A stretch of DNA of 63,726 nt from a virus. A program made the translations under genes and the position numbers. Of this stretch, positions 1 to 63,726 are shown piece after piece. The stretch lies in the IMG/VR virus record IMGVR_UViG_3300027734_000066, positions 1 to 63,726 of that record; one strand, written 5' to 3'. The notes beneath the pieces were generated by a model, which saw nothing but the letters and a program-made list of their open reading frames with translations, made no database searches and was not told where the DNA came from. Positions within the stretch are counted from its first letter, which is position 1; the number at the start of each line of letters is the position of its first letter.

Positions 1-1349
1 GACACGGCGTTCTGACCCACGATAGAGATGTTTTCACCCATAAGCTGCGCACCCCAGACAATTGGTGCACCTACGTACTGGAGCGAATACAGGGCAGCGT
101 CAGTCCACACCAAAACTTCTTGCCGTGACTGAGTGGCCGTAATGATTTCGGAGCCACGAGATAAGCGCAAGAAACCTGCTTGGTTGGTTGATGCGGGTGT
201 CCAGTTGTAGGGGTCTTCTTGGTCAGACCAGCGAATCAACATTGGGTCAACTGTGGCTGTGCCGTAATCGTTGCAACCAAACGCAAACACAAAACGGCTG
301 ATGTCAGACACCAACAAGTAGTTCTGCTGGATTGGTACGTCTGTTGCGCTTCCAAAGTCAGACAACATATATGCGTTTGACAAGATGCGCACGGTGCCTA
401 CAGCCGCAACGGTAACTATGATGAGTGCCCCTGTAGGGGTTGCTGAAATGTTAAACGAAGAACCCGACACGTTGCGTACGTAGTAAACCTTACCGGGGGT
501 GATGCCCACAGGCAAGGTAGAACCAGAGTCGGGTGCAAAACGCAGAGGCGTACCGTTAGCGTATTCGGCGGCAGCAGTGATGACTGTGGGGTTAGCTACC
601 GTAGCAGAGAACGTAATTGAGGTGTATCCAGAGGTGGCATCCCAGTAGTAGATTGCGCCTTCTCGGGGGCCAAAGATTAAATCCTCACCGTAGTTCTGTT
701 GACTCCACAAACGAATGGCGTCCGTAGATGCTTCGCCAATACCCCATGCGCCAGCACCCCAAGGGCCAGCACCCCACCCAACCAACGGCACTACGTAGGC
801 AGGGCCAACATTGATTTGATACAGCGCATACACAGTACCGCCACCTGCCGCCACATTTGACGTAGCGTTTGCGCTTGCCGTGATGGTGTATGTAGTGGCT
901 CCAGTGACCGTAATTTGGTACTGGCCAAAGATGGTTAAACCACCCACGGCTGTACCGCCGTAGAACGACACATAGTCACCATCAATGTAACCGCCATTGG
1001 CATCAGTCACCTGCACAATGGGGGAACCGACGTAAGTTCGAAACGGATTGGTCAAGGTGACCTGATTACGGAAGGGGGTGATGTCGTTGTAGATGCCGCC
1101 TGCTGCAAGATAAAACTTCAGGTTGGTGCCCACACCAATCAAGTTAATACCACCAAGGGTTACCCAGTTCCACAAGGAACGGCAGATGCCCAGAAAAGTG
1201 GATGCGGAGATACGTGCCCAGCCGCCGATCTTCTCGGGCGTGCCTTGACGAAAGCGAATCTTCTCGCTCTCGTACCAGCCTCCCTCGTTGGTGTATCGCG
1301 TGTTTTCGCGGTTCACCCCGGCTTTGAGCAGTATCTTCTTTAGTGGCAT
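1..1349 (-). CDS. Tail protein of P22 gp10 / T7 gp12 type, N-terminal part (runs off window)
   Basis: The frame is open from an ATG at 1349 to base 1 (449 codons) with no stop. It starts MPLKKILLKAG, carries a Gly/Trp-rich GWGAGPWGAGAWG stretch and long beta-rich segments with VSGSSFNISATPTGA-type repeats. It follows the endolysin stop with a 1-bp gap. Its last 29 residues before the window edge are identical in protein sequence to the first residues encoded at 63726-63639, so this is very probably the front of the gene whose back half is at 62882-63726. Together they would make about 700 residues. Size, beta-rich composition and a place next to fibres and lysis genes suggest a tail nozzle/packaged-DNA stabilisation protein. 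That assignment is by context and general resemblance, not a recognised motif. Confidence 0.7.
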   Translation of the reverse strand, partial: MPLKKILLKAGVNRENTRYTNEGGWYESEKIRFRQGTPEKIGGWARISASTFLGICRSLWNWVTLGGINLIGVGTNLKFYLAAGGIYNDITPFRNQVTLTNPFRTYVGSPIVQVTDANGGYIDGDYVSFYGGTAVGGLTIFGQYQITVTGATTYTITASANATSNVAAGGGTVYALYQINVGPAYVVPLVGWGAGPWGAGAWGIGEASTDAIRLWSQQNYGEDLIFGPREGAIYYWDATSGYTSITFSATVANPTVITAAAEYANGTPLRFAPDSGSTLPVGITPGKVYYVRNVSGSSFNISATPTGALIIVTVAAVGTVRILSNAYMLSDFGSATDVPIQQNYLLVSDISRFVFAFGCNDYGTATVDPMLIRWSDQEDPYNWTPASTNQAGFLRLSRGSEIITATQSRQEVLVWTDAALYSLQYVGAPIVWGAQLMGENISIVGQNAV

Positions 1350-7052: not shown

Positions 7053-7064
7053 CTGCTTACCCTT

Positions 7065-11308: not shown

Positions 11309-11310
11309 GA

Positions 11311-25548: not shown

Positions 25549-26643
25549 ATGGCTAACCAAGCAATCGCAATGTACTCTCTCGGCCTCGACCAAATCGAGA
25601 CTGCCATCCGTATCGGTGGTAACAAGCGCACCATCCTCGTGCAAGGTCACATGGGCACAGGCAAATCATCCCTGCTCAAGACCTTGGGCAAAGCCCTGCC
25701 GAATCACATCATGTGCTACTTTGACTGCACCACAAAAGACCTCGGGGACATCACCATCCCTCAGTTGCAAACCATTGACGATCAAGGGTACGTACGTTAC
25801 GTGACCAACGAAGAACTCGGTCTGCACTTGGGCAAGGACATCATCTTGATGGTGGACGAGTACGGCAAGGCCAACCCTGCCGTGAAGAACGCGATGCTCC
25901 GGCTCTTGCTCGAAGGCAAGATGGGTGGTTACACGTTAACAGACAAGTCTATTAGATTTGCCACGACCAACCTCGGTGCCGAAGGTGTGGGCGATCTGCT
26001 CCCTCCCCATGCACGTAACCGCATGACTGTGGTCACAGCGCGTAAGCCGTCTAACATGGAATGGATTGAGTGGGGTGTCAACAACGGTGTCGATCACACA
26101 TTGCTCGGATGGTGCAAGGACAACCCTCAGTTGTTCCACTCGTTCGAGGATGTCAAAGACCCCGAACAGAATCCGTACATCTATCACCCCAAGCAACAGC
26201 GCACAGCGTTCGTGACACCACGTTCACTCGAAGCCGCATCTGATTGGCTCAAGGGCCGCGATGGTGTAGACGATCAAACTATGACAGCTTTACTCATGGG
26301 CACTATTGGTGAACGCGGTGCCATGGACTTGATGGCGTTCGTCAAACTCGCCGATCAGTTGCCAAGCCTTGAGTCAATCAAGAAAGACCCGATGAACGCC
26401 AAGGTGCCTGACAGCGCGGCGGCGGTGTGCATGGTGGTGTATCGCTCGTTGTCTGTGATGGAACGCGATTGGGTGGACGCATGGATGGACTACATGGTGC
26501 GCCTTGACAAAGAAGCACAGGGTATGTTTGCCAACGGTGTGCGCAACCCGAAGTATGCCAAGCAGTCTGTGGTCATGACCAACAAGAAGTTCACGGCATG
26601 GGCTATGGCTAACAACTACATGTTTGCCGCTGACAAGAAATAA
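25549..26643 (+). CDS. MoxR-like AAA+ ATPase
   Basis: 364 residues, RBS CAGGAAAA. Walker A GHMGTGKSS (33-41), Walker B ILMVDEYGKA (Asp103-Glu104), sensor 1 FATTNLG (Asn141) and candidate arginine fingers in HARNRMTVV (156-158) are all present. The C-terminal lid has SLEAASDWL. MoxR ATPases remodel or activate partner complexes together with VWA-domain proteins. The next gene encodes exactly such a partner. The whole nucleotide-binding site looks functional. Confidence 0.88.
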   Translation: MANQAIAMYSLGLDQIETAIRIGGNKRTILVQGHMGTGKSSLLKTLGKALPNHIMCYFDCTTKDLGDITIPQLQTIDDQGYVRYVTNEELGLHLGKDIILMVDEYGKANPAVKNAMLRLLLEGKMGGYTLTDKSIRFATTNLGAEGVGDLLPPHARNRMTVVTARKPSNMEWIEWGVNNGVDHTLLGWCKDNPQLFHSFEDVKDPEQNPYIYHPKQQRTAFVTPRSLEAASDWLKGRDGVDDQTMTALLMGTIGERGAMDLMAFVKLADQLPSLESIKKDPMNAKVPDSAAAVCMVVYRSLSVMERDWVDAWMDYMVRLDKEAQGMFANGVRNPKYAKQSVVMTNKKFTAWAMANNYMFAADKK

Positions 26644-26654
26644 GGAGAAACAAA

Positions 26655-27854
26655 ATGTTAATGATTGGAAAACAATTGACTGCTGAACAACGCCTGAGCA
26701 AAGCGGTGGTGGACATCATGGGCTCACCCAAGTATGTCGCCCTCGCGGGTGTACTCATGATCGGCTCACGTACTGTGGACGATACGACAAAAACCGCATG
26801 TACCAACGGACGCGATGAGAAGTATGGACGTGCGTTCATCGAGACTCTGAGCGATGCGGAGTTGCGGTTCCTCGTGTTGCACGAGTGCTATCACAAGCTG
26901 TACAAGCATCTGATCACGTGGCGTCACCTCTACGATGACAACGCACAGCTTGCGAACATGGCATGCGACTACGTGATCAACATCAAGTTGACTGACGACA
27001 ACAGGGATGGGTTCGCCGTCATGCCCAAGGTTGGACTGCTCGATACCCAGTATCGTGACATGGACAGCGCACAGGTGTACAGGTTACTTAAAGATGACGA
27101 TGACGAATCCGGTGGCGGAGGTGGCGGCTCGGGCAATGGCGATGGCACGTCAGGAACTGGTCTCGATGAACACGACTGGGATGGCGCTGGCAAGCTGACC
27201 GACGAAGAAGGCAAACAACTGGCGCGTGATCTCGACGAAGCAATCCGTCAAGGCGCACTGGCCGCTGGCAAGTTAGGCAGTGGAGGGGAACGTATGTTCG
27301 AGGACTTGTTGCAGACCAAGATCGACTGGCGCGAAGCACTGCGCGAGTTCATCTCCACAACATGTCAGGGCAACGACTACTCCACGTGGCGGCGGCCCAA
27401 CCGCAGGTTTGTGTCGTCAGGCTATTACATGCCATCGGGTGTGAGCGAACAGGTGGGCGAGTTGGTGATCGCCATCGACACATCGGGTTCTATCGGTGGT
27501 CAGGAGTTGGCCAAGTTCTTGGGCGAAGTCAAGGGTATCTGTGATCAGGTGCGACCTGACGTAGTACGGCTCTTGTACTGGGACACCGAGGTGTGTGCTG
27601 ACGAGAAGTACGTGGGTGCCGAGGTGGAGAACATCATCGGCTCGACCAAGCCCGAGGGTGGTGGGGGTACGACCGTGGAGTGTGTGCCTGAGTACATGAC
27701 AGCGCATGGCGTCAAGCCGCAAGCTGTGGTGGTGTTGACTGACGGCTATCTTGGTGGCTCGTGGGGTCAGTGGGCATGCCCTGTGCTGTGGTGCATCGTG
27801 GGTAATGCGGGTGCTCGACCTGATGTCGGCAAGTATGTACACGTGGAGGACTGA
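26655..27854 (+). CDS. VWA-domain protein with N-terminal metallopeptidase-like domain (DUF2201-type)
   Basis: 399 residues. Residues 60-145 resemble a zinc-peptidase-like domain with HECYH (His76, Glu77, His80), followed by DYVINIKLTDDN. A Gly/Asp linker (150-175) joins a VWA domain with a complete metal-binding MIDAS: DTSGS (Asp275, Ser277, Ser279), Thr339/340 and LTDGY (Asp363). In cellular systems MoxR and this VWA type work as a chaperone or co-factor-insertion pair. Here they are 11 bp apart in a phage early operon. The biological target is unknown. Confidence 0.85.
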   Translation: MLMIGKQLTAEQRLSKAVVDIMGSPKYVALAGVLMIGSRTVDDTTKTACTNGRDEKYGRAFIETLSDAELRFLVLHECYHKLYKHLITWRHLYDDNAQLANMACDYVINIKLTDDNRDGFAVMPKVGLLDTQYRDMDSAQVYRLLKDDDDESGGGGGGSGNGDGTSGTGLDEHDWDGAGKLTDEEGKQLARDLDEAIRQGALAAGKLGSGGERMFEDLLQTKIDWREALREFISTTCQGNDYSTWRRPNRRFVSSGYYMPSGVSEQVGELVIAIDTSGSIGGQELAKFLGEVKGICDQVRPDVVRLLYWDTEVCADEKYVGAEVENIIGSTKPEGGGGTTVECVPEYMTAHGVKPQAVVVLTDGYLGGSWGQWACPVLWCIVGNAGARPDVGKYVHVED

Positions 27855-44849: not shown

Positions 44850-47800
44850 TCAGTCCAACAGCCCGTTGTCGTACTCGGACGCATTCTCTAACAACTCAGG
44901 ACGGAGCTTCTTGTTTAGAGTCACACCGTGATACATCTCTTGCGATGTTTTCATGTGTTGAGCCATCGAGTTCTGGATAGTCTCGGGCGTAATTGCCGCA
45001 GTGGGATGCGCTCTGTTGAACTTCATGATGTCCTCAATTGCATCACTCATGCCATCGGAGTCGCCGTTTCGTGCGGCAATGTAGTAATCGCGCAACATCT
45101 TGGTACGTTCCTTGGTGGCACGACGCTCAATGTTTTTGAGGGACGCATTGATCTCCAACTGGCGGGTGTACTCGGCAGGTGCAAACCCAAACGCTTGTGC
45201 AAATGCGTTGGCCGTGCTTATTTCCCCAACTATTGGGTCACCGCGCAGGGTGTTGGCACCCTCGGTTGCGAAGCGAATACCCTTAAACCCGTTGGCAATA
45301 CCTGCGGGGAGCATGCGCTCCAGACCACGTTCAGTCTCACCCTCACTGATCAGCTTGGCACCTTGTTGTAGTCGGTCGGCTACGCCGTAGACTGGGCCAC
45401 CCATGAGTTGCAAGAACGCCAGCACAGCGTTGTCTTGCTCACGGTATCCGGTGCTGTTGATCAGCAGGTCAGACAGGCCGATACGGTTGGCGATGGCCGT
45501 ACCAGTCAGGTAGTTGACCGCGCCATTGAACAGACCCTCGCCAAGATACTTACGTACGGCGGTCTCAGCGTCATCCTCATCATCACCCTTGAACAAGTTG
45601 TAGACAGCGGCCAAGATGCCAAACATGGGCAGACCCTGCACCCCAGCCATCATGCCAGCGGAGGCGTAGATACCAAGAATTTGGCGCATAGCGGCATCGC
45701 GGACTTTCTTGTCCTCGGACTTCATGGCTTCACGGGCCGTCTTGAACATCATGTAGTACATGGAAACACCGTACCGCTTGTACATAAACATGATCTTGCC
45801 AATTGAATTCTTGGCCAGCAAAGGTGCGCTACCTGCGGACGCGCCGCCGTTCATCAGTTCAGTGGTTTGGATTGCGCGTTTGGCCGCTTCGGTGCGTGAT
45901 GCACTGTCAATCTTCTCACCCTCCTTGGCCATCCGGTCAAGCTCAAGTTCGTAGGATGCGATCAGGGAAACTTGGCGGTTCATGCGCTCGCCATGGTGGA
46001 AGATGAAGCCAGACCATGCGTTCACACGGTTCAAAGGCGTGGACTTCTCGTCCATGTCCAAGATGTCATGCGTCATCGAGCGGCTGAGCAAACCGTAGTC
46101 CTCGGCGATCTGCGACAACTCCTTGAGGCGCTTGACGTTCTCTGGCACCCCTTTGGCGTCAAAGTCGTAGTTGTCCAGCGAGAAGCCAGCCCTGACCTCA
46201 ATCTTGGATTTGCCGTCAGCGGTGGGCACCGTCATCTCGGCGTTGCGCTTGAGGCCGCTACCAAAGAACAGACGGGTGGCCGAGCCAATGGCTTTCATAG
46301 TTTCGGGATAGCCGTACTTACCACCAAGGTAAGGCATCATCACCAGTGGCACCTGTGACATGTTTACCAGTGCAGAGGATACGTTGAACCCCAGCGTCCA
46401 GTTAAACGCAGTGGAGGTCATAATTTTTGACCATGGGGAAATGTTGGGGCTGACCAGCGTTTGGATGTGGCTGTTCAACTCATCGGCCAGACCACGGGCC
46501 GCCTCGGTGTTATTTGTTGTCTTAACGTGTTCGTTGATCTCATCACGCAGTTGGTACATTTTGCCGCTGTACTCAAGGTTGGCCAGTTGGTGCGACATAC
46601 CCATGGAGCGTGTGAAGAACGCAGAGGTTGCATCGAAGCTAAAGCCGGGTGTGTTTTTACGCTTGCGGAACGCTTGAGCAAACGATGACTCAGGTAGCGT
46701 TGACAAGAACGTACGCATGATCTCATCGGTGACTTCTGGATCAACTTTGTTGGCTTCAAGCGTACGCAAGATAGAGTTCACAAAGGATGTTGGAGGTGCA
46801 TCCTTGTACGTTTTATTGGAACTGCCAGTAAAGCGCGTAATGTTTTTTGCGCCCCCTTCTTTTTCCAACTCTTTGATGGCACGCTCCCGCTCAACCGAAG
46901 TCTCGTAGTGTTCAACAAAATGCTCTACGTTGCCATCGCGCCCTTTGCCGTCGTATGCCAAGCGATAGTCACCATTACGTGTCAGGGGGAAGTACGGCTC
47001 AATCTTGCCCTTGGTGGCAAGGCGTTGGTAGATTTCAGTCTTGAGCTTTTTGGCATCTTCCTTGTCTTTCACAGAGGAGTCGATGCGGTTAAACATCAGA
47101 TCAAGCAGGTCTTCGTAGGTCTTGGCGTACGTGTCGCGCATCTGTTTATAGACGCTCTGGCCCTCATCTTTGAGCGCGGCCCACTGAGGTTGCAACTCAT
47201 CCCACACCTGTTGTTTATCTTTACCGCTCTCGGACTGCTTGCCCTTGTAGTCGGCGCGGGGCTTGGACGGGTCAACCTGCTCCAGCGTGCTGGTGGCAAT
47301 GACATCGTTCAGGATGGCTTCTTTCTCAGGGTTGCCTTTGAGCCAGTTCTGGATGCGCTTCATGGTGGCTTCGGTAGCGCGTTTGCGCTTGTCAATTGAA
47401 CCGTTCCACAGCTTCTCCAACTCGTCAAGGCGCGGAGCCATTGGAATGTCTTTCTTGGCAACCTCAACCAGTGCATTGAGCGGTAGGCTACGGCGCACCA
47501 ACTTCTGGACAGCGGAAGGCACACCCTCGCGGAACAACTCATAGATGCCGCCAACGATCTTGTTATCCAGCGCAGGCATTGACAGGATTCGGTCGTCCAG
47601 AGTCTTGAAGACTGCGGAGCTTTTACCCAACAACGATGCCGAGAACAACGAGCCTGCCTCACGAGATTCAGGTGCAGGCGACAAGATGGTGTTGATCAAC
47701 GAATCAGAGGCGTCGAGTGCGGAGCCCATACCCTTGGTTTCTTTACCCATGATTGACCGCACAAAGTTGCGGATGGCGTGCATGAAGCGTTGCCATGCAG

Positions 47801-50800
47801 TGATTGCCTCACCCTTGGGATTGATTGCCGCCAACTGTTGCTGGAACTCGGGGTTGCTGAATGCCTCGGCAACGAACTCATCCAAAGACTGTGCGCCGTA
47901 CGCTGTGTCCAGCGAATCTTTGACGTTGTTGTAAAGCTCTGTAAGTTGTTTAGTTACAGGGTGTGACTTGTTGCCTATGACATGTGATGTAGCGGCATGT
48001 ACCGCTTCATGTAATAGCACGTGAAGGTTTAAACCTTCTTTCTCGTCCAGCTTGATGGTGTCTGTCTTGGGGTCGTATAGGCCGGGGACTGGGACATCTT
48101 CGGCGTTGAGAAGCATGGGTTCCAGATCGACTTTGGTTTTGCCAATTGCGCCAGCCAATTTTTTGGCAACTTCGGATGCACGGCCAAGGTTTTGTGAACC
48201 CAACATGGTCAGGGCTCCACGCAGATCACCAGCTTTTACCATCTTGCGGATAGCAGGGTGCAACGGAAGCGCCAGCACCACCGCATCGCGGGATAGTTCC
48301 AGTTCGTCGCCGTCCATTTGTTCCTTGATGGCAAAAGACAATTTTTGCTGGGTGTTGAACTGATTAACACCTCGGCGCACCTCTGCTTCGGAATTACCAA
48401 AGTAGTCCAGCATCTTTCTGGCCAGTGCCTTTTTGTCAGCCGCCGACAAGGATTCATAGAATGCTCTGGCGTACTCACCGCCGCTCAGCGGAACAATCGA
48501 GGTCGTGCCTGTACGCCCAAAAGCGATGTCGTCAACAGGGATGCCGGTGCGCAACTGTGTGGTGATGTCGTTGAGCTTGTCAACGCGCTTTAGCAACTTG
48601 TGCTTTTCAAACATGGCCACGTACATGTCATAGGCCAGATAGTCAAGCGCGTCAGACCGGCTCTCAACTTCCATCACTTGTCCGTATGCACCGAATGCGG
48701 TAGATGGCTTAGCCTTGTCCTTCTTAGCTTTAGTTTCGGGTTTACCCTTAGCTTCAACCTTTTTTGGCTCAGCTTTGGCCTCGGCCTTTGGTTCGGCTTT
48801 CTTCAGTGCACTGGGCTCCACGCCCGCTCGACTTCCAGCGTTATCAGCAGGTTTCCCACGATCTCCCAATCCAGTGGGCTTAGATGTTTCAGTTCGCTTG
48901 GTATTAGCAGGGGCTCCAGTGCGCTCGTCCTTTGCACCGCCCTCTTTGCGATCTTCAGCGCGAGTTCCAGTTCCTCCAGCGACATCTCCTGCGTCCTTAT
49001 CACGTCCTCGCTTAGCGGGTTTTGTGGCTGCGAGTTTTGTTGTGGGTTCATCTTTCTTACTTTCCTTGGTAGCCTTGGTTGGCTTCGCGGGTACAAACAT
49101 GTCACCTTGTTTGGCAAGACCACCAAACGCTTGCATTGCTAAGTTTTCAACCGCATCTTTAGTACCTGTGGATAAGTTAGGATTTTCCCTAATACGGCCA
49201 AAGATGTTTGCAACGACGGGTTGCTGGGCCGTGTCGGCCATGTCCATATTGAGCAACTGCTTGTAGAACCCAGACTGTTTGGGTAGGCCAGCTTTGGCCA
49301 ACACTTCCGGTGACAGCACAGTAGCAAACGGTTTTTCTTCCTGAGATGCAATCTCCTCCTCGGAGAAGGCTTGGGGTGCGGCACCCTTTGGTTTACCCAT
49401 GCCGGGGAAACCCATCTGTTCAGGTTCACGCTGTGACTTCTTCTCAGGTATGAGCGACTCGATGGATCGCAGTTCTTTCTTTTGCTCCTCGGGCTCTTGC
49501 ACGACAGGCTCAGCTTCAACCACAGGTGCTTCTGCCAAACGGATGTCATAGGCACGGTTGATGAGGTTGCGCTCACGCTCGGTAAGGTTGGTGTTGGTGA
49601 TGCCTTCACGCTTGAGTTCCAAAACAAATGCTTTGGGGATGTTTTTGACATCAGACTCAACAATTGGCAACAGCAACTGGAGGCGTGTGTCCTGAGATGT
49701 TTTTTCTTGCTTGCGTTCCATAGTGCCGGTCAATTCGGCAAGTTCGGATTCAAACTTCAGGCGCTCTTTCTCAGCGATTGCGCGGGCTTCTTCCCGAGTT
49801 CCACGAACCTTGGCTTCTTCGTCAGCCTTCTGCAACTGCTCAAGTTGTTGGCTTTCCAACTCGTCGATCATGTCGCGGGTTTGAGTATCTTTCCTACCCG
49901 GTCTTGTCTTTCGAGACTCTATTTCGTTCTTTACAAGTTGCCAGTCTTTATCTCGTAGATTGGTGTTGTAAATTTGTGCTTGCAGTTGCTCATCAGTCAT
50001 TTCTACGACTTGCTGAGCACTGAGTGTTTTGGGGTAGGTTGTAGGTTGTTTAGCTTCTGTGCCTTCTTCCGTTGTTTTAGGAGCGACACGGCCACGTCCG
50101 GGCACCTCTACGGTTCCGTCAGCACGCTCAACTCCCGGCAGGTCAAGTTGGCCCTTTTTAGGTTCTTGCCCAAAAGTCTCTGCAAGTGCGGCTTCTTTGC
50201 CACGGCGTGCAAGGTTGCGGTCAAACGACGACAAGCCAGCCAGCGGGTCGGAGGTGCGTAGGTCTTCTTCGCGTTGCCGTGCAGTGCCTTGTTTGGACTT
50301 GAGGTAGTCGTCGTATTCGGCTTTGGTTGTGATGACAGAGCCGTCAGGCAACGCCACAGGGGTAAACGGCTCGGCGGTGTAGCCCAGCAATTGTTGCTCG
50401 GGTGCCTTGGTCTCAGGTGCAGGTGCTTCTTTATCCAGCCCCAACGATGCGCGACGAGCCTTGCGGCCAATGGTCATGTCAATGATCAAGCTGGCCAATG
50501 CACCGACTCCAGCGCCATAGGCACCTTCTTCGCCAGAGCCGACAAGGATTTCCTGCTGGGGGTCGTACACGCCCTTCGCAATCAAGTTCTGGGCAACCTT
50601 TTGTGCGGCTTCAGTTACGCCCTCAACGCCGCCACGGGCGGCGGCGGTAACCATGAGGCTCTTGAACGGTTTGATCTGGGGTGCCAGTAAGTCGAGCAAA
50701 CCAGTAGGCGCACCAAGCTGGGTAGCCAGACGCCGTTCTTCACCTGTGGCACCTTTGGCTTCGGCAGACTCACGTGCTTCGCCAGCGCCAGCGGCAACAC

Positions 50801-51269
50801 CAAGACCACCAGCGGCAACACGGCCAGCCAGTCCAAGGGGGCCAGCGGCAAAGAACGGTAGGGTAGAGCCCAAGCCTTCACCCAGCTTGCGACCAACAGA
50901 GTCTTCATAGCCAGCACCAGCCTCAAATGGCTTCTTGGCAAGACCAGCAAGCTCTTTGATTTTTTCGCGTGCAGCCTTTTCCGTGTCATCGGGCAGCAGT
51001 GCGCTGATACCAGTACCTGCGGACTCAAGCAGGTTGATTGCACCGGGAACCAACCCCTTGCCAAACTCTTTAATGTTTCCACCGACAGTAGGTTTTGGCT
51101 TGAGCAATTCCTCACGTTCAGCGCGTAGCTTTTGTAGACGTGATTCAATATCGTCCTCTTGGGGGGCCGACTGCATGGATTGTGCAATCCGTGCTAACCG
51201 TTGGGCGGCTTGAGTATCACCCGCCGCATCCGCATTTCGCAGTGCGGTCAGCACATTCTGCAAGTCCAT
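44850..51269 (-). CDS. Large polyvalent/internal virion protein with HEAVH metallopeptidase-like motif
   Basis: 2139 residues, last gene of the leftward operon. N-terminal ALRNADAAGDTQAAQRLA is a motif seen at the start of other phage giant proteins. Hydrophobic Ala/Gly-rich stretches (about 100-180) follow, then low-complexity Lys/Pro/Glu, then LLHEAVHAATSHV (HExxH, about 1086-1090). The last 600 residues carry FNVSSALVNMSQVPLVMMPY, KIMFMYKRYGVSMYYMMF and many helices, resembling a large polyvalent-protein domain (LPD38-type, from memory). Such proteins are packaged and probably injected with the DNA. Confidence 0.78.
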   Translation of the reverse strand: MDLQNVLTALRNADAAGDTQAAQRLARIAQSMQSAPQEDDIESRLQKLRAEREELLKPKPTVGGNIKEFGKGLVPGAINLLESAGTGISALLPDDTEKAAREKIKELAGLAKKPFEAGAGYEDSVGRKLGEGLGSTLPFFAAGPLGLAGRVAAGGLGVAAGAGEARESAEAKGATGEERRLATQLGAPTGLLDLLAPQIKPFKSLMVTAAARGGVEGVTEAAQKVAQNLIAKGVYDPQQEILVGSGEEGAYGAGVGALASLIIDMTIGRKARRASLGLDKEAPAPETKAPEQQLLGYTAEPFTPVALPDGSVITTKAEYDDYLKSKQGTARQREEDLRTSDPLAGLSSFDRNLARRGKEAALAETFGQEPKKGQLDLPGVERADGTVEVPGRGRVAPKTTEEGTEAKQPTTYPKTLSAQQVVEMTDEQLQAQIYNTNLRDKDWQLVKNEIESRKTRPGRKDTQTRDMIDELESQQLEQLQKADEEAKVRGTREEARAIAEKERLKFESELAELTGTMERKQEKTSQDTRLQLLLPIVESDVKNIPKAFVLELKREGITNTNLTERERNLINRAYDIRLAEAPVVEAEPVVQEPEEQKKELRSIESLIPEKKSQREPEQMGFPGMGKPKGAAPQAFSEEEIASQEEKPFATVLSPEVLAKAGLPKQSGFYKQLLNMDMADTAQQPVVANIFGRIRENPNLSTGTKDAVENLAMQAFGGLAKQGDMFVPAKPTKATKESKKDEPTTKLAATKPAKRGRDKDAGDVAGGTGTRAEDRKEGGAKDERTGAPANTKRTETSKPTGLGDRGKPADNAGSRAGVEPSALKKAEPKAEAKAEPKKVEAKGKPETKAKKDKAKPSTAFGAYGQVMEVESRSDALDYLAYDMYVAMFEKHKLLKRVDKLNDITTQLRTGIPVDDIAFGRTGTTSIVPLSGGEYARAFYESLSAADKKALARKMLDYFGNSEAEVRRGVNQFNTQQKLSFAIKEQMDGDELELSRDAVVLALPLHPAIRKMVKAGDLRGALTMLGSQNLGRASEVAKKLAGAIGKTKVDLEPMLLNAEDVPVPGLYDPKTDTIKLDEKEGLNLHVLLHEAVHAATSHVIGNKSHPVTKQLTELYNNVKDSLDTAYGAQSLDEFVAEAFSNPEFQQQLAAINPKGEAITAWQRFMHAIRNFVRSIMGKETKGMGSALDASDSLINTILSPAPESREAGSLFSASLLGKSSAVFKTLDDRILSMPALDNKIVGGIYELFREGVPSAVQKLVRRSLPLNALVEVAKKDIPMAPRLDELEKLWNGSIDKRKRATEATMKRIQNWLKGNPEKEAILNDVIATSTLEQVDPSKPRADYKGKQSESGKDKQQVWDELQPQWAALKDEGQSVYKQMRDTYAKTYEDLLDLMFNRIDSSVKDKEDAKKLKTEIYQRLATKGKIEPYFPLTRNGDYRLAYDGKGRDGNVEHFVEHYETSVERERAIKELEKEGGAKNITRFTGSSNKTYKDAPPTSFVNSILRTLEANKVDPEVTDEIMRTFLSTLPESSFAQAFRKRKNTPGFSFDATSAFFTRSMGMSHQLANLEYSGKMYQLRDEINEHVKTTNNTEAARGLADELNSHIQTLVSPNISPWSKIMTSTAFNWTLGFNVSSALVNMSQVPLVMMPYLGGKYGYPETMKAIGSATRLFFGSGLKRNAEMTVPTADGKSKIEVRAGFSLDNYDFDAKGVPENVKRLKELSQIAEDYGLLSRSMTHDILDMDEKSTPLNRVNAWSGFIFHHGERMNRQVSLIASYELELDRMAKEGEKIDSASRTEAAKRAIQTTELMNGGASAGSAPLLAKNSIGKIMFMYKRYGVSMYYMMFKTAREAMKSEDKKVRDAAMRQILGIYASAGMMAGVQGLPMFGILAAVYNLFKGDDEDDAETAVRKYLGEGLFNGAVNYLTGTAIANRIGLSDLLINSTGYREQDNAVLAFLQLMGGPVYGVADRLQQGAKLISEGETERGLERMLPAGIANGFKGIRFATEGANTLRGDPIVGEISTANAFAQAFGFAPAEYTRQLEINASLKNIERRATKERTKMLRDYYIAARNGDSDGMSDAIEDIMKFNRAHPTAAITPETIQNSMAQHMKTSQEMYHGVTLNKKLRPELLENASEYDNGLLD

Positions 51270-55135: not shown

Positions 55136-58100
55136 CTAACCTTTCAGTATCTTGAGCAATTCGTCGTTTACATCTTTAGAACTGTCCACCATGCCACCTT
55201 TTGCAAAGGGGGATACAAACATATTAGCCTGTGATGGGTTAGCAAAGATGCTATTGAAGTCGTAAACATATCCAATCTTAGCCGGATCAGCAGCTTTTAC
55301 GGTAACTTGTTGTCCTTTGGTGTCTTCTGCCTGCCCCAGCATGTTCATCAGGTTGTTGAGGTTACCCATGCGCTGGGTCTTGGTCGCAGCCGCCGCTTGC
55401 GCTTGGCGGGTCTTTTCTGCCTCATCAGCTTGCGCTTTGCGGGTGGCCACAGCTTCGTCTGCCACAGTTTTAAACACGCCGGTAGGTGCCCACTTGCTGT
55501 CAGGTGCAGGTTCGTATTTGAACGGGTCGTTAGTGTCTGGTTTGTAATCAGGTTGCTGAGACTTGAGATAAGTCTCAATTGCAGTCTTGTCTTTCTGATC
55601 AATTACCTTATCGCCGTTGTAGTCGTACTGTGGGTCGTAGGCACCGGTTGTTTCCAACAGCTTGATCATTGCGTCCAGATCGGACTGCGTGGCTTGTTGT
55701 TGCCCACGGCCCAGAGTCTTGGCCATGTCCGCCTGCGCCATCTCAAGCGCCTTATCACGGGCAATACCTGCCTTCTCGTACTCAGCGGCCTTGTCCAGCA
55801 CCGCTTGTTTGGCGGTGTTGATGTCTGTCTTTAAGTCAGTTTTGGCGGTGCTAATGTCTGTCTTGAGTTCAGTCTTGGTGGCGGCTAATTCAGTCTTGAG
55901 GTTGGCCTCGGTCTTACCAATCTGCGTAAGGATGTCAGTACGTGTGGTGCCAAGATCAGCAGCTACATCGTCGATTGCCTTGCCCAGTGCCTCATCCCGA
56001 CCAATACCGGCTTTCTCATACGCAGCCGCCCGAGCCAAGATATTGCTCTCAGCATCGTCAATCTTGGTGGACAGGGTGTCCTTGACACCTGAGATTTCTT
56101 CGCTTAATTTTGTTTCGGTCAGGCCCAGTGCTTTGAGCACGGCGGCTTCTGAGTCAGCAATCTTGGCACCAAGGTTTGTTTCAACCGCACCAACGTCTGC
56201 CTTCAAGTTTGCTTCGGTCGTGCCAATCTGCTTGAGCAGAGCTTCCTTAGTAGTGCCAAGATTTTTTGCAACGTCTTCAATAGCTTTGGATAACGCCTCG
56301 TCGCGCCCAACACCAGCTTTTTCGTACTCGGCCATCTTGGTATAGATGTTGGCTTCAACATCACCGAGCTTTGTACTTAACGCGCCAACATCCTTACTCA
56401 AAGCATCAATTGTTTTGGTCAGGTTAGTTTCGGTAGTACCAATGCGTTTAAGGATGTCTTCTTTGGTAGTGCCAAGCTCAGTGGCAACATCGCCAATCGC
56501 TTTTTGTGTGGCCGCCTCCCGAGTCATGCCTGCTTTTTCGTTGTCGGCAATCTTGTTGAGGATGTTGGTTTCGGTCGTGGTAAGTGCATCGGTTAGCTTA
56601 CCGGTCTGATCATCCATCTTGTAGCCGAGGTCTTTGATCTGGCTGGCCAAATCTTTTTTGACCAGTGCAATTGCATCCAGTGCTTCCTTACTACCTCCAC
56701 CAGCAGCCATAGCGTCAAGCTGTGACATGATGGAATTTAATCGAGCCGTTGGTAAGTAGTCGGTTGCTTTGGCTGTAAGTCCAGTCTCCTCGTACTGACC
56801 CATCAGTTTCTTGATGTCGTCAGCAGTAGGCTTATCTAATCCCAGTGCAGCATACGCAGCCTTGACTTCACCCTCGTCAACAACACGTGGGTCAGTCCAC
56901 GTTGCAATATTTTTGGCTTGGTCGGCTTCATTAACCTGCCCAACAAATCGGTTGACATCTACATCGGTAGGGGTGTACCCCTGATCAACCAAGTATTTCT
57001 TGGCTTCGTCGAACGTCACCTGACGCGGGTTTACGTAGTCCGCAACAGCTTTTGTCTGTGTGGATTCGGCGGCGCTACCTACAAACTGCTTGATCTCCTC
57101 CGCAGAGGGTGTGTACCCTTTGCTGGTAAAGAACGTCTTAGCTTCCTCGTATGTTGTTGCTTTGGGGTCAAACTCGGAACGCGCCGCTGAAGTGGCAGCA
57201 GCTTCATCTTTTTGGCCAACCAACTTGGCGGCTTCTTCGTCTGTGAGCGTGTACCCCTCAGCGGCGGCGGCGGCTTTTACTTCAGCAAGGTCAAACACTC
57301 TGGGGTCAACATACGCCTCGGCGCGGCTGGCAAGCGTAATGTCGCTGCCTTGGCCTGTCAGTGCTTTGACATCGGCATCAGAATACGTGTAGTCATCCCG
57401 CTTGGCCAGCGCCGTAGCAGCCTCACTACTGCTGGTGTAGTTGGCGTTGTCGATGGTGTTCATCAAGTTGGACTTGATGGTGTTATCTGTGATACCAAAG
57501 TTGGCCAGTGCAGTAGCAGCGGCGGCAGGGTTATCCTTGTTGGTCTCCAAGATGTCGGCAATTACTGGGTTACCTTGGACAGCGTTGGATATGACATCCC
57601 CCGTGCGGCTTGCGCCATACGCACCCCCGGCAATCGGGCCACCGGCAATAACGCCAAACGCAGCCGCTTGTGTGATTTCTTTGGCAACGTCACGAGTCTT
57701 GTCGAGCTTGTACAGTTGGCCTTCCAGTGCGGCCTGAGTAACACCCTCTTCACCACCTTCGGACAAACCTTCTTTGATGGTGATCTTGGTGCCGGTCTTG
57801 GCAAAGTCACCGAGGGACTGCAACGCATCGCCCAGACCTGTGCCAGACCTGCCCAAAACTGCTTTCTCAAGGGCCGCGCCACCAATACCCATCGACACGG
57901 CAGTAGTAGCCGCAGCAACAAACGCTTGGCGCTGTGCAATCTCCATGGCAATCTTGTCTGCTTCCGCTGGAGACTTACCCACTTTGATTGCGGTTTTGTA
58001 CGCTTCATCGTACGCTCCAGAAGCTGCGCCGCCAGCGGATTCGGCAATGTCTGTGGCAATAGATGCAGTCATACCTGCGGCAGTACCCATCTTGGCGGCA

Positions 58101-60571
58101 ACCGCTTGGCCATACTTCAACGCAAGCGCAGCACCTTTGGCACCCGATGCGGCAACGCCGCCGATGAGGAGTGGCGCAACTTCTTGGATACCTTCAACGC
58201 CAACGTATTCGGCCAAGAATTGAAGTGGGGCAGATTTAAACGCGCCATAAATTGCTTGAAGCGTACCGCCAACACCCTTGGCATCGCCAATCATGGACTG
58301 CATGTTTTTGATAGCGGCTTGGTACTCCGCAGTATTACTTGCTTTGCCAAGATCATTTAGCGCATTGGAAAACTTACCCAGCGCGGTGTTTTTAGGCGCA
58401 GTACCAAACAACACAGAGATACCGTTGACCGATTCAAGGAACCCGCCGCCAGCCTTCAAGACGTTGGCAGTCGTATTGATCAATGTGGAGTTACCCGACT
58501 GCTGTGCCCAGCCAACAACCGTCTTGGCGGCGTTAATCATGGCATCACTTACAACATTGTTGACAGCAGCCGCACCTCCCAACTCGGCCATAGCAAGAAT
58601 CTTCTCTTGCTCAGTAGGCGCTTTGGCATAGACATACACTGTCGGTAGCATGGGCTCATAGTTGCCAGTAGCCGAGTTCCATGTTGATACAGCAGTTTTG
58701 GGGTCGGCCTCAATCCATACGGGTCTTCCTTTGGTGTCATAGACCATTGCAGCCTTGCCACTGTCGAAAGATTCAAATGACGCCAGCTTTGTGCCCACAG
58801 GGGGAGTAAAGTCAGCGGGTTTGTGCCACTCACCATAAGAATGACCGTTAACCTCAACTTTAAACGTACCGTTTTGCTGGTTACTAACCAACTGGCTAAG
58901 CGAGGTTGTATTACCGTTAACAATGTCTTGGATAGACGCAGCTTTCAACGCACCAATATTGTTACCGTAGTTAGCGTCAATGTTGTCCAGAATTTTTGAC
59001 ACCGTGGCGGGATCAGCCGTAGCTACCGTAACGCCCTTTTGCGCCAACGCAGCGTTTACCAGACGAGTGCGTTCTTGCGCAATGATCGGCTGCGCAGCTT
59101 TGTCGTTTGTTGGCGCGTTTTGGAATTGACCCGTGGACAAGAAGTGTTCGTATGGATCAACATTAGAAGCTAATCCGTTCAGCTTGCGGTATTGTTCAGC
59201 GTCAAACTTTTCGTCCATTGCCTCGACAAACGCACGGTTACTTGTGCGGTATATTGGGTCAAGCACATCGGATAAGGTATCTGTCTTGGTAGCAAACGCT
59301 TGGATGGCTTTTTCATAGTCACCACTCTTCACCGCATAATCTTGCTTCAGAGTATCTAACTCTGCGCCATATTTTGTCAGTGCGGGTTGGTACGTGTCGT
59401 TGTAATCTTTGTTCAGCGCCGTTACGTAGTTGTTGTACTCTGTTATCGCAGCATTTGCGGCAGCGGCGGTTGCGTCACTCGGGTTGGCGTTATGCGCTGC
59501 TACTGCGGCGTTGTATGCTTCGGAAAGTTTGTTTTGTTCCGCAATCCGTGTTTGTACGGTCTGGACAGTGCTGTTGTAGTTTTCTGCTGCAACTTTCTGC
59601 GCTGCAATGTTTGTATCTACTTTTGCTGCGGCGGTGTTTGCAGTTTTGTACGCTGTATCCGCCCCAGCAGTGGCCTTCTTGAATGGGTCAGTAGCCATGT
59701 CCCCCAGAGCTTTAGAGCCAGCTTTCATCATGGCGGCTTGAACAACATTGGATGCTTTGCCGCCGGTTAACGCAGCAGTAGCCGTACCCATAAGCACGTC
59801 GGTCAGGAGAGTGCGCTGAGTGTTGTCGAGCTTCGTACCATCAGGGTCGAACGACTTAATTGCATCAGTAACAATACCCGAGGCAGAGATGATGCTGCCC
59901 ATGATGGCAGCACTTGGGTTGGGGTTGTTTGTGATCTGTGCAGCAACCGCAGATTGAATGGCCGCCTGCGCGGTTTTTGGTAGGTTGGTAAATTTACCCC
60001 CTGTCATCTCATCAACTTTACCCAGCACTGCGCCGGTAGCCGCACCTACACCACCAGAAACAAACGCCTTAACGGGGTCTTGACCAGTAGCAACGGCAAC
60101 AGCCGCAGCGCCCGCGCCACTACCAAAAATCTGGCCTGCAAGTGCGCTGTCAGTGGCTTTGGCTACTGCGGTAGTGGCTTTACCCCCGACAAAAGAACCA
60201 ATCTCTTGGGCCACGTACGCTGTGGCGGTGGCCTTGAGGACATCTTCCACATTGCCACCCTTTGCAGCAACGTCAGCACCTTCAATGAGCGGCAACATCC
60301 ATACTTGCCCCGTGGCAACAGCAGCAACCTGCGCAATGGTTTTAATGGGGTTATCCAGCGCCGCCTGAATGACGTTGCTCACCGTAGCCATCACGGGGTC
60401 AATGATTTTGTTGATGACCCAATCTGTTGCTTTTACAACTGGCTTAACAAATACATCTTCAACTGCTTTAATAACAGGGTCGTACAGTTGAATTTTTCCA
60501 ACGGCGTTTTTTCTAAAAGCATCTGGGTGGCCCGGAATATATCCGGCCATTATTTCAGCACGGCCTCTCAT
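55136..60571 (-). CDS. Giant repeat-containing internal virion protein
   Basis: 1811 residues. Residues 1-250 are Ala/Gly/Val-rich hydrophobic segments. A long helical middle follows (about 300-450). Two repeat families lie in the C-terminal half. Family 1 is four to five units of about 48 residues, (Y/W)xDPRxxxxxEAKxxxxxxGYTxxxxxxxxFVGQ (DNA about 57400-56760). Family 2 is four coiled-coil units, YEKAGIGRDEALxKAI...LGTTxxxILxQIGxTEANL (about 56600-55690). A dockerin-like calcium loop DYNGDKVIDQKD lies near 55600. It overlaps the previous stop as ATGA. Likely an ejected or tail-lumen protein. Confidence 0.72.
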   Translation of the reverse strand: MRGRAEIMAGYIPGHPDAFRKNAVGKIQLYDPVIKAVEDVFVKPVVKATDWVINKIIDPVMATVSNVIQAALDNPIKTIAQVAAVATGQVWMLPLIEGADVAAKGGNVEDVLKATATAYVAQEIGSFVGGKATTAVAKATDSALAGQIFGSGAGAAAVAVATGQDPVKAFVSGGVGAATGAVLGKVDEMTGGKFTNLPKTAQAAIQSAVAAQITNNPNPSAAIMGSIISASGIVTDAIKSFDPDGTKLDNTQRTLLTDVLMGTATAALTGGKASNVVQAAMMKAGSKALGDMATDPFKKATAGADTAYKTANTAAAKVDTNIAAQKVAAENYNSTVQTVQTRIAEQNKLSEAYNAAVAAHNANPSDATAAAANAAITEYNNYVTALNKDYNDTYQPALTKYGAELDTLKQDYAVKSGDYEKAIQAFATKTDTLSDVLDPIYRTSNRAFVEAMDEKFDAEQYRKLNGLASNVDPYEHFLSTGQFQNAPTNDKAAQPIIAQERTRLVNAALAQKGVTVATADPATVSKILDNIDANYGNNIGALKAASIQDIVNGNTTSLSQLVSNQQNGTFKVEVNGHSYGEWHKPADFTPPVGTKLASFESFDSGKAAMVYDTKGRPVWIEADPKTAVSTWNSATGNYEPMLPTVYVYAKAPTEQEKILAMAELGGAAAVNNVVSDAMINAAKTVVGWAQQSGNSTLINTTANVLKAGGGFLESVNGISVLFGTAPKNTALGKFSNALNDLGKASNTAEYQAAIKNMQSMIGDAKGVGGTLQAIYGAFKSAPLQFLAEYVGVEGIQEVAPLLIGGVAASGAKGAALALKYGQAVAAKMGTAAGMTASIATDIAESAGGAASGAYDEAYKTAIKVGKSPAEADKIAMEIAQRQAFVAAATTAVSMGIGGAALEKAVLGRSGTGLGDALQSLGDFAKTGTKITIKEGLSEGGEEGVTQAALEGQLYKLDKTRDVAKEITQAAAFGVIAGGPIAGGAYGASRTGDVISNAVQGNPVIADILETNKDNPAAAATALANFGITDNTIKSNLMNTIDNANYTSSSEAATALAKRDDYTYSDADVKALTGQGSDITLASRAEAYVDPRVFDLAEVKAAAAAEGYTLTDEEAAKLVGQKDEAAATSAARSEFDPKATTYEEAKTFFTSKGYTPSAEEIKQFVGSAAESTQTKAVADYVNPRQVTFDEAKKYLVDQGYTPTDVDVNRFVGQVNEADQAKNIATWTDPRVVDEGEVKAAYAALGLDKPTADDIKKLMGQYEETGLTAKATDYLPTARLNSIMSQLDAMAAGGGSKEALDAIALVKKDLASQIKDLGYKMDDQTGKLTDALTTTETNILNKIADNEKAGMTREAATQKAIGDVATELGTTKEDILKRIGTTETNLTKTIDALSKDVGALSTKLGDVEANIYTKMAEYEKAGVGRDEALSKAIEDVAKNLGTTKEALLKQIGTTEANLKADVGAVETNLGAKIADSEAAVLKALGLTETKLSEEISGVKDTLSTKIDDAESNILARAAAYEKAGIGRDEALGKAIDDVAADLGTTRTDILTQIGKTEANLKTELAATKTELKTDISTAKTDLKTDINTAKQAVLDKAAEYEKAGIARDKALEMAQADMAKTLGRGQQQATQSDLDAMIKLLETTGAYDPQYDYNGDKVIDQKDKTAIETYLKSQQPDYKPDTNDPFKYEPAPDSKWAPTGVFKTVADEAVATRKAQADEAEKTRQAQAAAATKTQRMGNLNNLMNMLGQAEDTKGQQVTVKAADPAKIGYVYDFNSIFANPSQANMFVSPFAKGGMVDSSKDVNDELLKILKG

Positions 60572-61075: not shown

Positions 61076-62185
61076 TTATACCGCGCAAGGCTCAAATAGC
61101 GCGGCAGAAAACACGTTGCCCATACCTGCGGCCAGAACTGCAACTACCCCTTCACGGGCAGGTGCATCATAAGACAAGAATACATGGTCTTCCTCGGTGC
61201 GGTTGGGAATGCCGGGGATGACCCCCGTCTTGAGGTCGTTGAGCAGCAAGCTGGTCTCCATCAGTCCGCTGGCAGCAAGGGTGTGCCCCACGCGCTGCTT
61301 GTAGGAGGTGGCCACAAAGTCGGGGAACTGGGCCAGAATAGCGGCCTTCTCAGCCGTGTTGTTGGTCGGGGTGCCTGTACCATGCGTCTTGATGATTTTG
61401 ACGGCGCTGGCGTTGATTTTGGCCATGTGCAGGGCACCTTCAATGGCCTTCTGATACCCCTGACCGTCAGGGCGCTGACCCAACGGGTTGGAAAAGTCTT
61501 CAGCGGCGGTGTAAGTACCCAGCAGTTTGGCGGCAGGATCGACAGCCGGTTCGGTCTCGAAGATGGCCAGACCTGCACCTTGCCCAATGTTGAACCCTGC
61601 GTTTACAGAGTCAAACGCTGACGGTTTGATGATGGCCTCGTCCTTGAACATCAGGCTGGCTTTGGCTTGGCCAAAGAACTCCAACGTCGAATTGTTCACA
61701 GCGTCCTCAACACCCAACACAATCATACGGGTAAACCCGAAGTTGGCCATAAGGTTCTGCACCTCCAACAAGACTTTGATGCTGGACGCGCACGCGCTGG
61801 CGTCCGTGGATACGTAGTCCATGGGGCCGAACATGGATGCAACGCGCCCAGCGTAGATGTTGGTCAGGGTGACCAGCGGCAGCTTGAGTTTGAAGTGCAA
61901 ACGCCCAGTGTCTTGCTGATCATGCCTGCCACGGATGCCCGCCCAACCTTGGGAACCTGCGGCCAAGATGAAACCAGTTTTACCAGACGTAGGGTTTTCC
62001 CTAACGTAGTTGACCAACTTGGGGTCGATGACTTTGTTGGCCAGCACATGCGCTGGATAGACCAGCCCTGACTTGACGTTGTTGTAGGTTTCAGGGAACC
62101 AGTGGATGCGTTGGGGGTAAGGGTGATCGTCAATGACATCGGTGTGGGTTGACCCAGCACCGCGATGGTGTGTGAGGTAAATCAT
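61076..62185 (-). CDS. Beta-ketoacyl-ACP synthase (KAS I/II-like)
   Basis: 369 residues. The complete Cys-His-His site is present: nucleophile Cys132 in STDASACASS, His268 in IKTHGTGTP and His301 in QRVGHTLAASG. Lys296 lies 5 residues before His301, as in FabF (Lys335/His340). Spacing between catalytic residues is close to FabF. The N terminus is atypical, lacking the usual VVITGxGxVSPLG start; the chain is about 40 residues shorter than FabF. It should condense an acyl chain on ACP with malonyl units. It is coupled (ATGA) to an ACP gene and embedded in virion genes. Confidence 0.9.
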   Translation of the reverse strand: MIYLTHHRGAGSTHTDVIDDHPYPQRIHWFPETYNNVKSGLVYPAHVLANKVIDPKLVNYVRENPTSGKTGFILAAGSQGWAGIRGRHDQQDTGRLHFKLKLPLVTLTNIYAGRVASMFGPMDYVSTDASACASSIKVLLEVQNLMANFGFTRMIVLGVEDAVNNSTLEFFGQAKASLMFKDEAIIKPSAFDSVNAGFNIGQGAGLAIFETEPAVDPAAKLLGTYTAAEDFSNPLGQRPDGQGYQKAIEGALHMAKINASAVKIIKTHGTGTPTNNTAEKAAILAQFPDFVATSYKQRVGHTLAASGLMETSLLLNDLKTGVIPGIPNRTEEDHVFLSYDAPAREGVVAVLAAGMGNVFSAALFEPCAV

Positions 62186-62463
62186 TTGACCCTCGCCAGT
62201 TCAGCTTTGACATCTTCTGGTGTGCGCGTTTTGTTTGCGTCCAAAAAGGCTTGCAGGTCAGTAACGGTCACAGCCTGCATTTCTCGCATCACGTCTTCTT
62301 CAATACCGTAGATTTCTCCAAGGTACATGGCAAGCATGATGGTGTCGAGGCTGTCCAATCTCAGATCAGGCAACTGATCATCCATGGAGGTAGCGTGGCT
62401 ATCCCGCGCAGAGACGGGCTTGGCGAGTGTTACCACGCCATTAAAAAGTTCAAGAAAGTTCAT
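62182..62463 (-). CDS. Acyl carrier protein
   Basis: 93 residues, RBS AAGGTG 6 nt upstream. The ACP core LRLDSLDTIMLAMYLGEIYGI carries the DSL motif; Ser38 is the predicted phosphopantetheine site. A second helix with VTVTDLQAFLDA matches the last ACP helix. The 25-residue N-terminal extension and Lys-rich C terminus differ from AcpP. Its stop overlaps the KAS start, so the two should be made together. Activation would need a host phosphopantetheinyl transferase, as none is seen here. Confidence 0.88.
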   Translation of the reverse strand: MNFLELFNGVVTLAKPVSARDSHATSMDDQLPDLRLDSLDTIMLAMYLGEIYGIEEDVMREMQAVTVTDLQAFLDANKTRTPEDVKAELARVK

Positions 62464-62540: not shown

Positions 62541-62885
62541 CTACCCGACCTTCCAGTTAGTGCCGTCAGAATACACAGGTACCTTAGTGGCCCCGCCAGC
62601 AACCACAGTCGATCCAAAAGCGGGAGCAAGCGCATCAGACACAAAAGCCCGTGCGCTTATGCCAGAAGTTACAGCACTTGGCAGGGTTGCCACCGTGTAC
62701 ACAGTTGTTGGGGGGATGATGCCACCCGCAGTGTCTAACTGCCCCAAAATGCTTTGCAGCCGTACAAAGTACAGCCGAAGGACGCTGTTTAACTGATCTT
62801 GGTATGGGCGCTGATACTCCTCGGGCGCTTGCGGCAAAGCAGGCGGCGATATGCGTTGAAGCTCAAACTCGGAGATGACAATCAT
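62541..62885 (-). CDS. Small tail-associated protein with YSDGTNWKVG end
   Basis: 114 residues. The N terminus is helical and Pro-rich (ALPQAPEEYQRPYQDQLNSV), followed by a beta-rich part ending GGATKVPVYSDGTNWKVG. The final SDGTNW motif is frequent at the end of phage tail proteins and fibres (from memory). The ATG overlaps the stop of the gp10-like gene by 4 bp. Role unknown; probably part of the tail. Confidence 0.68.
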   Translation of the reverse strand: MIVISEFELQRISPPALPQAPEEYQRPYQDQLNSVLRLYFVRLQSILGQLDTAGGIIPPTTVYTVATLPSAVTSGISARAFVSDALAPAFGSTVVAGGATKVPVYSDGTNWKVG

Positions 62886-63726
62886 CGACGGCCATCCGAA
62901 CGCATGTCAATACGGGGCGAGCCCAACTGCCAGTTCACGCCCAGTCCAGTGGACTCAAACTTGATGGACATCTGGCGACCACGCACCCGAGTAAAAATCT
63001 GCCCGGTGAACTCTTCTACCGGCAAGGTGGCAATCCGTGTGACGGTCGCAAAACTATCGTTGGCCACAGAGTGATTAGCGTTTGTCGCTGAGTTGACCGA
63101 ATACCCAGAGCCAGAATTTTTCAACGGCAGCAGGTACATAGTGGCGCTGGGCGGGGTTGCCGTAGAGCCTTCAAACGTAACGTCGGGCAATACGCGCCAC
63201 ACAAACATAAAGTTGTGACCATCATCCAAGTCAAACTGCGAGGAGATGATAGATGCTGTGATTGGCAATGTGGTGCCTGTGGCGTTGTCGTCCAGCCCTT
63301 GCTCGTGGTTCACAAGGTTATTGTAGTACGTAGCAGCCAGCGGGTAGTCACGCAAGCCAGAATCCAGCCATGCAGTGCGAGCCATATTGCCGTAGTACCA
63401 CACGTTTTCCACGTAGTTGTAGACCACGTATTTATCGATGTCAGTAGAGCCTTCGGAGCAATAGAACCACCAGACTTCGTTGAAACCTTCGTTGGTGCCC
63501 GAGCACACCTGCGCGTACTGCGAGGTGTTGATGTCCTCAAACACGTAGCGGCGCAGGTCGCAGTTCAGTGTCTGCGTGCGGCCATCGTATTTGTAGAACT
63601 TGTCTTTGCCCATCCAGTAAGCCACGCCCGTGGCGTACGACACGGCGTTTTGCCCGACGATGGAGATGTTTTCACCCATAAGCTGCGCACCCCAGACAAT
63701 TGGTGCGCCCACGTATTGGAGTGAAT
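62882..63726 (-). CDS. Tail protein of P22 gp10 / T7 gp12 type, C-terminal part (runs in from window end)
   Basis: The frame is open from base 63726 (281 codons visible) and continues the protein whose front is at 1-1349: both read SLQYVGAPIVWGAQLMGEN in the overlap. The downstream part is beta-rich with VWWFYCSEGSTDIDKYVVYNY and FTRVRGRQMSIKFE, consistent with a tail nozzle or stabilisation protein. An internal ATG at 63712 is not the true start. Confidence 0.72.
   Translation of the reverse strand, partial: SLQYVGAPIVWGAQLMGENISIVGQNAVSYATGVAYWMGKDKFYKYDGRTQTLNCDLRRYVFEDINTSQYAQVCSGTNEGFNEVWWFYCSEGSTDIDKYVVYNYVENVWYYGNMARTAWLDSGLRDYPLAATYYNNLVNHEQGLDDNATGTTLPITASIISSQFDLDDGHNFMFVWRVLPDVTFEGSTATPPSATMYLLPLKNSGSGYSVNSATNANHSVANDSFATVTRIATLPVEEFTGQIFTRVRGRQMSIKFESTGLGVNWQLGSPRIDMRSDGRR

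Follow-up and report, generated by a model that had tools for sequence, protein, structure and literature searches.

An acyl carrier protein and β-ketoacyl synthase gene pair of aquatic phages with a rewritten acyl gate

Introduction

The closest well-described counterparts of the gene pair reported here are the β-ketoacyl-ACP synthases (KAS) FabF (KAS II) and FabB (KAS I) and the acyl carrier protein (ACP) AcpP of type II fatty-acid synthesis (FAS II). In FabF, entry of the acyl chain is gated by the GFGG loop (residues 399-402) together with loop 2 (residues 265-275), and an F400A mutant showed better access for, and reaction with, a C8 probe (PMC7138838). Related genes have been described in phages. 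Both fabG-acpP-fabF and acpP were reported in Rhodobacteraceae prophages (PMC8224337), an ACP gene is one of only two auxiliary metabolic genes in the Alteromonas phage R22Y (Schitoviridae; PMC11705849), and fatty-acid biosynthesis is a pathway targeted by auxiliary metabolic genes of ocean viruses (PMC11360552).

The locus studied here resembles the prophage genes in that an ACP gene is followed by a KAS gene in a phage-assigned region, and differs in that the prophage genes are annotated as ordinary FAS II together with fabG, a distinction drawn from their description rather than their sequences (PMC8224337). Phage R22Y likewise encodes an ACP but has no reported KAS, again as compared by description (PMC11705849). 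Closer relatives exist as database entries with automatic names or unknown function: PHROG 35856, the BFVD entry A0A6J7X0R1 ('FabB' of an uncultured Caudovirales phage) and MW202545 (Manatee Spring) belong to the same KAS family (6.3e-31; 52-54% identity), and MW202545 also encodes the ACP. No paper on this ACP-KAS pair was found in the open-access literature, subscription papers lying mostly outside the search. The remark in the initial annotation that phage homologues are rarely discussed is thus fair for this pair, and too broad given the published prophage genes, the R22Y ACP and the fatty-acid genes of ocean viruses.

Results

The window, by which we mean the whole stretch of DNA analysed, is a virus record of ~63.7 kb. 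Its ends (1-90 and 63637-63726) overlap by ~88 bases at ~91% identity inside a single nozzle-type gene, so the window probably represents a nearly complete genome that is circularly permuted; the imperfect circular joining probably stems from strain variants. Both open reading frames of the pair were found on the minus strand, where the initial annotation had placed them, among the following features:

62182..62463, minus strand: ACP, 93 aa, with the phosphopantetheine Ser38 (codon 62350-62352) in LDSLDT
61076..62185, minus strand: phage-type KAS, 369 aa, with Cys132 (61790-61792), His268 (61382-61384), Lys296 (61298-61300), His301 (61283-61285) and gate Met355 (61121-61123)
62182..62185, minus strand: ATGA shared by the stop codon of the ACP gene and the start codon of the KAS gene, read from the sequence; a 4-base overlap likewise occurs in most relatives
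62541..62885, minus strand: 114-aa gene upstream of the cassette, homologous to a 113-aa gene that follows the nozzle gene in a cassette-less phage (L243)
60568..61032, minus strand: D1, a conserved late gene (154 aa), next downstream of the KAS and outside the cassette (also present at empty sites)
62882..63724, minus strand: C-terminal part of a tail-nozzle-type virion protein (PHROG 3287), whose gene spans the window's ends
3..1349, minus strand: N-terminal part of the same nozzle-type gene, at the overlapping window ends
55136..60571, minus strand: giant 1811-aa protein, presumed internal virion or ejection protein, downstream

The ATGA overlap suggests that translation of ACP and KAS is coupled. 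The 114-aa gene had no match in Pfam or PHROG. Elsewhere in the window, an AAA ATPase gene stands beside a DUF2201 VWA/metallopeptidase-like gene (25549-27854, plus strand) and resembles a MoxR-VWA type pair; a protein of 951 aa that contains DUF927 and weakly matches a primase-polymerase (41708-44563, plus strand) is probably replicative; and the virion block ends with a protein of 2139 aa (44850-51269, minus strand) that carries an LPD39 polyvalent-protein domain.

The larger protein of the pair is a thiolase-fold β-ketoacyl synthase, as profile, fold and the Cys-His-Lys-His site agree. It matched the Pfam families ketoacyl-synt (PF00109; 3.4e-11) and Ketoacyl-synt_C (PF02801; 7.7e-18) with 43.7 and 65.1 bits, above the curated cut-off of 20.8, and matched 91 KAS sequences of solved structure at E-values down to 1.4e-19. 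The AlphaFold2 model (pLDDT 92.6) had FabF structures as its top PDB matches, with TM ~0.7-0.8 by query length. FabF-type NCBIfam models matched down to 1e-29, yet the scores fell well under the curated cut-offs (TIGR03150, 103.5 bits against 493.75), as they did for every other KAS model. Cys132, His268, Lys296 and His301 stand at exactly the positions given in the initial annotation and are invariant in 89/89 non-redundant phage KAS, as is Glu310. The annotation had named a tree position among non-condensing homologues with loss of the malonyl pocket as grounds for abandoning its reading; the catalytic residues are not lost.

Phage KAS share with FabF and FabB the fold, the catalytic site, the HGTxT motif and the conserved Glu, but are only ~20% identical to them and are ~34 residues shorter in the stretch that precedes the catalytic Cys (median 131, compared with 165 in 51 bacterial KAS). 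The lack of the usual N-terminal start region had been pointed out initially, and the short N-terminus is not a missing start, because relatives share the conserved beginning MIYLT...PQR.HWFPE. The N-terminal alignment is unsure where the counterparts of FabF Lys65, Arg68 and Lys69 would lie. The gate has been rewritten as well. Compared with the same 51 bacterial sequences, Asn396-x-Phe398-Gly-Phe400-Gly-Gly-x-Asn404 of FabF is replaced by Leu-Ala-Ala-Gly-Met-Gly-Asn-x-Tyr/Phe, so that the GFGG of FabF and FabB with its flanking Asn residues gives way to GMGN flanked by Leu and by Tyr or Phe. Loop 2 has invariant residues of its own (Glu229, Asn233 and Gln237), unlike the bacterial pattern. 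By analogy with the effect of F400A in FabF (PMC7138838), altered specificity is a plausible effect of losing the gate Phe, and the rewritten gating loops would probably lead the phage KAS to accept or release acyl chains differently from host FabF and FabB. The divergent specificity suggested in the initial annotation thus agrees with two features of the protein, the short N-terminus and the rewritten gate, from which the effect on specificity is predicted.

The smaller protein is, as judged from its predicted structure, a divergent ACP. Profile matches were weak: Pfam PP-binding gave an E-value of 0.016 and 15.9 bits, below the cut-off of 20.8, the PHROG ACP profile gave 0.0012, TIGR00517 was also weak, and PP-binding matched 8 of 51 ACP relatives at E<=0.01. 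The AlphaFold2 model (pLDDT 93.4) recovered ACPs as nearly all of the PDB matches listed, with probabilities of 0.84-1.00 and TMt ~0.45-0.66, at modest Foldseek E-values (from 0.017). Asp37 and Ser38 are invariant, and the model has a helix at residues 38-52, which puts the DSL motif at the start of helix II. The helical fold and the DSL/DSLD carrier motif are shared with AcpP; the phage ACP differs in an extra C-terminal helix (85-92), in a less acidic helix II, with non-acidic residues mostly at the positions of AcpP Glu41 and Glu47, and in always being paired with a phage KAS. Open reading frames, profiles, structural models and fold searches thus agree with the original reading of a genuine ATGA-coupled ACP (DSL, Ser38) and KAS pair.

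Relatives of the KAS are numerous in viral collections. One search of IMG/VR returned 19 loci, a profile scan 504 stretches encoding KAS relatives (the best 80 of the 504 were taken on) and a further scan at least 552 KAS-encoding stretches; these collection scans relied on short degenerate patterns, which very distant members would escape. In 86/86 loci read, the gene directly upstream of the KAS encodes an ACP with the carrier Ser. Five loci apparently without an ACP proved on inspection to encode ACPs with DSFD or DSLA, missed by the first regular expression. The survey of related phages that the initial annotation had called for therefore shows a recurrent pair and not a one-off. Pairwise dN/dS was 0.085 and 0.057 for the KAS and 0.22 for the ACP, which shows that the pair is under purifying selection, and decayed copies were not seen among the loci examined. 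An exact-pattern search with D1 of the window as query gave no matches.

Bacterial genomes presented a very different picture. When 84,980 species genomes of bacteria and archaea were scanned, a single close KAS relative came up, on a contig in a Balneolaceae bin where it is followed by the phage gene D1, that is, in phage context. A phage KAS profile reached at most ~101 bits in about 100 bacterial genomes, compared with ~580 for the Balneolaceae-bin contig. KAS matches in 'phage' records of Listeria, Enterococcus, Staphylococcus and others (24-34% identity) were set aside, as they appear to stem from bacterial sequence contaminating draft records. A KAS tree, also proposed initially, placed the phage sequences in one clade apart from the bacterial KAS (99% SH-aLRT, stem of 1.68 changes per column); it samples 53 phage and 25 bacterial sequences, and its long branches leave the exact place of the root unsure. 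The KAS subfamily is common in aquatic phages, with hundreds of contigs, and hardly seen in bacteria. As expected of phage auxiliary metabolic genes, the pair has phage flanks in the classified loci and lies outside the core set; a recognisable bacterial donor was found neither in the genome scan nor on the tree.

The pair occupies two genomic homes. The majority arrangement is a late block consisting of nozzle-type gene, ACP, KAS, D1 and giant virion proteins, while 18 of 89 non-redundant members lie in an early replication block with the order SNF2 helicase, ACP, KAS and a small conserved protein; early and late expression of the two blocks would follow from their gene content. On the tree, two changes between early and late sites were reconstructed, though one could suffice. 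In a record with an early-block pair (L068), the stretch from nozzle to D1 holds two short open reading frames and neither ACP nor KAS, and the nozzle-D1-giant protein row is intact despite the empty site. The site was examined in 84 loci that have a related nozzle gene followed by 3.6 kb or more of sequence: the KAS was there in nine and absent in 75, D1 occurring without a KAS in 10. Since the loci were picked by likeness to nozzle genes adjoining the pair, the proportion of 9/84 is only indicative. The pair is therefore accessory, as the sporadic, decayed insertion envisaged in the initial annotation would be, but decay is not in evidence and the KAS is constrained (dN/dS 0.06-0.09). In one of the 10 loci that have D1 without a KAS (phage L355), a PF10118 (Metal_hydrol) gene for a predicted metal-dependent hydrolase lies between the nozzle-side genes and D1 (6913-7644, plus strand), and the spot between nozzle and D1 may be a general cargo slot. 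Two homes, an empty site and other cargo in the slot indicate that the pair is cargo that moves as a unit and is not integral to virion assembly. Distances between KAS sequences correlated with those of ACP (Spearman 0.60), D1 (0.68) and the nozzle (0.71). Special co-evolution of KAS and ACP was considered and rejected, as 0.60 is no higher than the values for D1 or the nozzle; in the late group the pair is inherited largely along with its neighbours.

Few other genes of lipid metabolism accompany the pair. A FabZ gene (PF07977, 5.8e-30) directly follows the KAS in two of 49 viral records (L067 and L070), and these two are the only records in which the families searched turned up a fatty-acid gene besides the pair. 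In L067 the gene (11124-11555, plus strand) encodes a FabZ-type dehydratase with the active-site region GHFP...E and extends the cassette to ACP-KAS-FabZ in an early block, as also in L070; used as a query in viral contigs, it matched only itself. No phosphopantetheinyl transferase (PPTase) was found in the 49 records or in the window, and no PF13561 (FabG/FabI-type) reductase in the 49 records, absences that are only suggestive since many of the records are fragments. They suggest that the pair depends on the host for cofactor attachment, malonyl supply and reduction. No genes for a product or a lipid target were recognised near the pair.

Discussion

The combined results make it somewhat probable that the pair is a self-contained accessory module, with a private ACP and a dedicated, catalytically competent KAS, that uses host FAS II and yields a product altering the acyl pool or the membrane. 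In such a pathway a host PPTase would turn the phage apo-ACP into holo-ACP, and host enzymes would load malonyl or acyl groups onto it. The KAS would then carry out decarboxylative Claisen condensation on the phage ACP, with Cys132, His268 and His301 acting together with Lys296, as the fold and the invariant residues suggest, and the chain may be finished or modified by host reductases and a host dehydratase, or by the phage FabZ in two phages. The phage would most likely benefit through a shift in the acyl-chain pool, or in the lipid make-up of the membrane, while infection lasts. The fold, the catalytic residues (89/89), the carrier Ser (86/86), the low dN/dS, the FabZ of two records and the fact that the pair stays together across two different genomic blocks all argue for this module. 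Against it, the gate changes could make the KAS condense less well and tip it towards acyl transfer or decarboxylation, additional fatty-acid genes are as rare as described and lipid target genes are lacking nearby, and acceptance of the phage ACP by host FAS II and PPTase is presumed, the Glu41 and Glu47 of AcpP being mostly lost. A bolder version is rather less probable: a virus-confined subfamily of condensing enzymes, equipped with a carrier of its own and a re-engineered acyl gate, would make an acyl product foreign to the host, for membrane remodelling or for modifying a phage or host molecule.

Other explanations must be weighed against the accessory module. The pair may instead serve to shut off or divert host synthesis, by draining malonyl- or acyl-ACP or through competition of the phage ACP for phosphopantetheine or binding to partners of the host ACP, so that slower host lipid synthesis favours the phage or weakens the envelope before lysis. 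Two proteins would suffice for such a role without a full pathway, the altered gate and carrier surface would suit it, and it is compatible with early and late placement alike. We nevertheless regard it as unlikely, as a decoy could do without a complete catalytic site maintained by purifying selection and the recruitment of FabZ in one lineage suggests that a product is formed. Placement bears more directly on virion acylation, in which the KAS would act as an acyltransferase from the phage ACP to neighbouring ejection or tail proteins and so aid their insertion into the host membrane. The initial annotation correctly located the pair between the nozzle and internal virion genes and read a late, virion-linked role from that position. 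The cassette does lie between nozzle and ejection genes in most members, including the window, and the correlated distances of KAS, ACP, D1 and nozzle imply long residence at the late site. That role is weakened, however, by the early-block members (18/89), by the L068 phage with its nozzle-D1-giant row free of the cassette, by the 75 of 84 sampled nozzle loci without the pair and by the unrelated L355 hydrolase in the slot, and virion acylation appears distinctly unlikely.

The remaining two readings concern the origin and the end product of the pair. A specialised phage product, such as a short polyketide-like or odd acyl molecule serving as a signal or antibacterial, would fit the separate KAS clade with its long stem, the rewritten gating loops and the private ACP; it seems very doubtful, as no thioesterase, reductase, cyclase or transporter was recognised adjacent to the pair and a release step is not known. 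Least probable by our estimate is the chance capture of a host gene, a recent moron lacking phage-specific function. The pair is indeed confined to a minority of the phages with this nozzle, but 84,980 species genomes held no close bacterial source apart from one phage-like contig, bacterial KAS score at most ~101 bits where the phage-type member reaches ~580, and low dN/dS and many diverse phage homologues further disfavour a recent arrival.

Manipulation of host lipid synthesis by phages has so far mostly been inferred from single host-like genes. The accessory module described here is a compact set of two genes in which the active site is intact and the gate departs invariantly from the known one. 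It can be directly expressed and assayed, which opens to experiment the question of how a phage would benefit by producing or redirecting acyl chains. For enzymologists it also provides an ACP-KAS pair rewired by nature.
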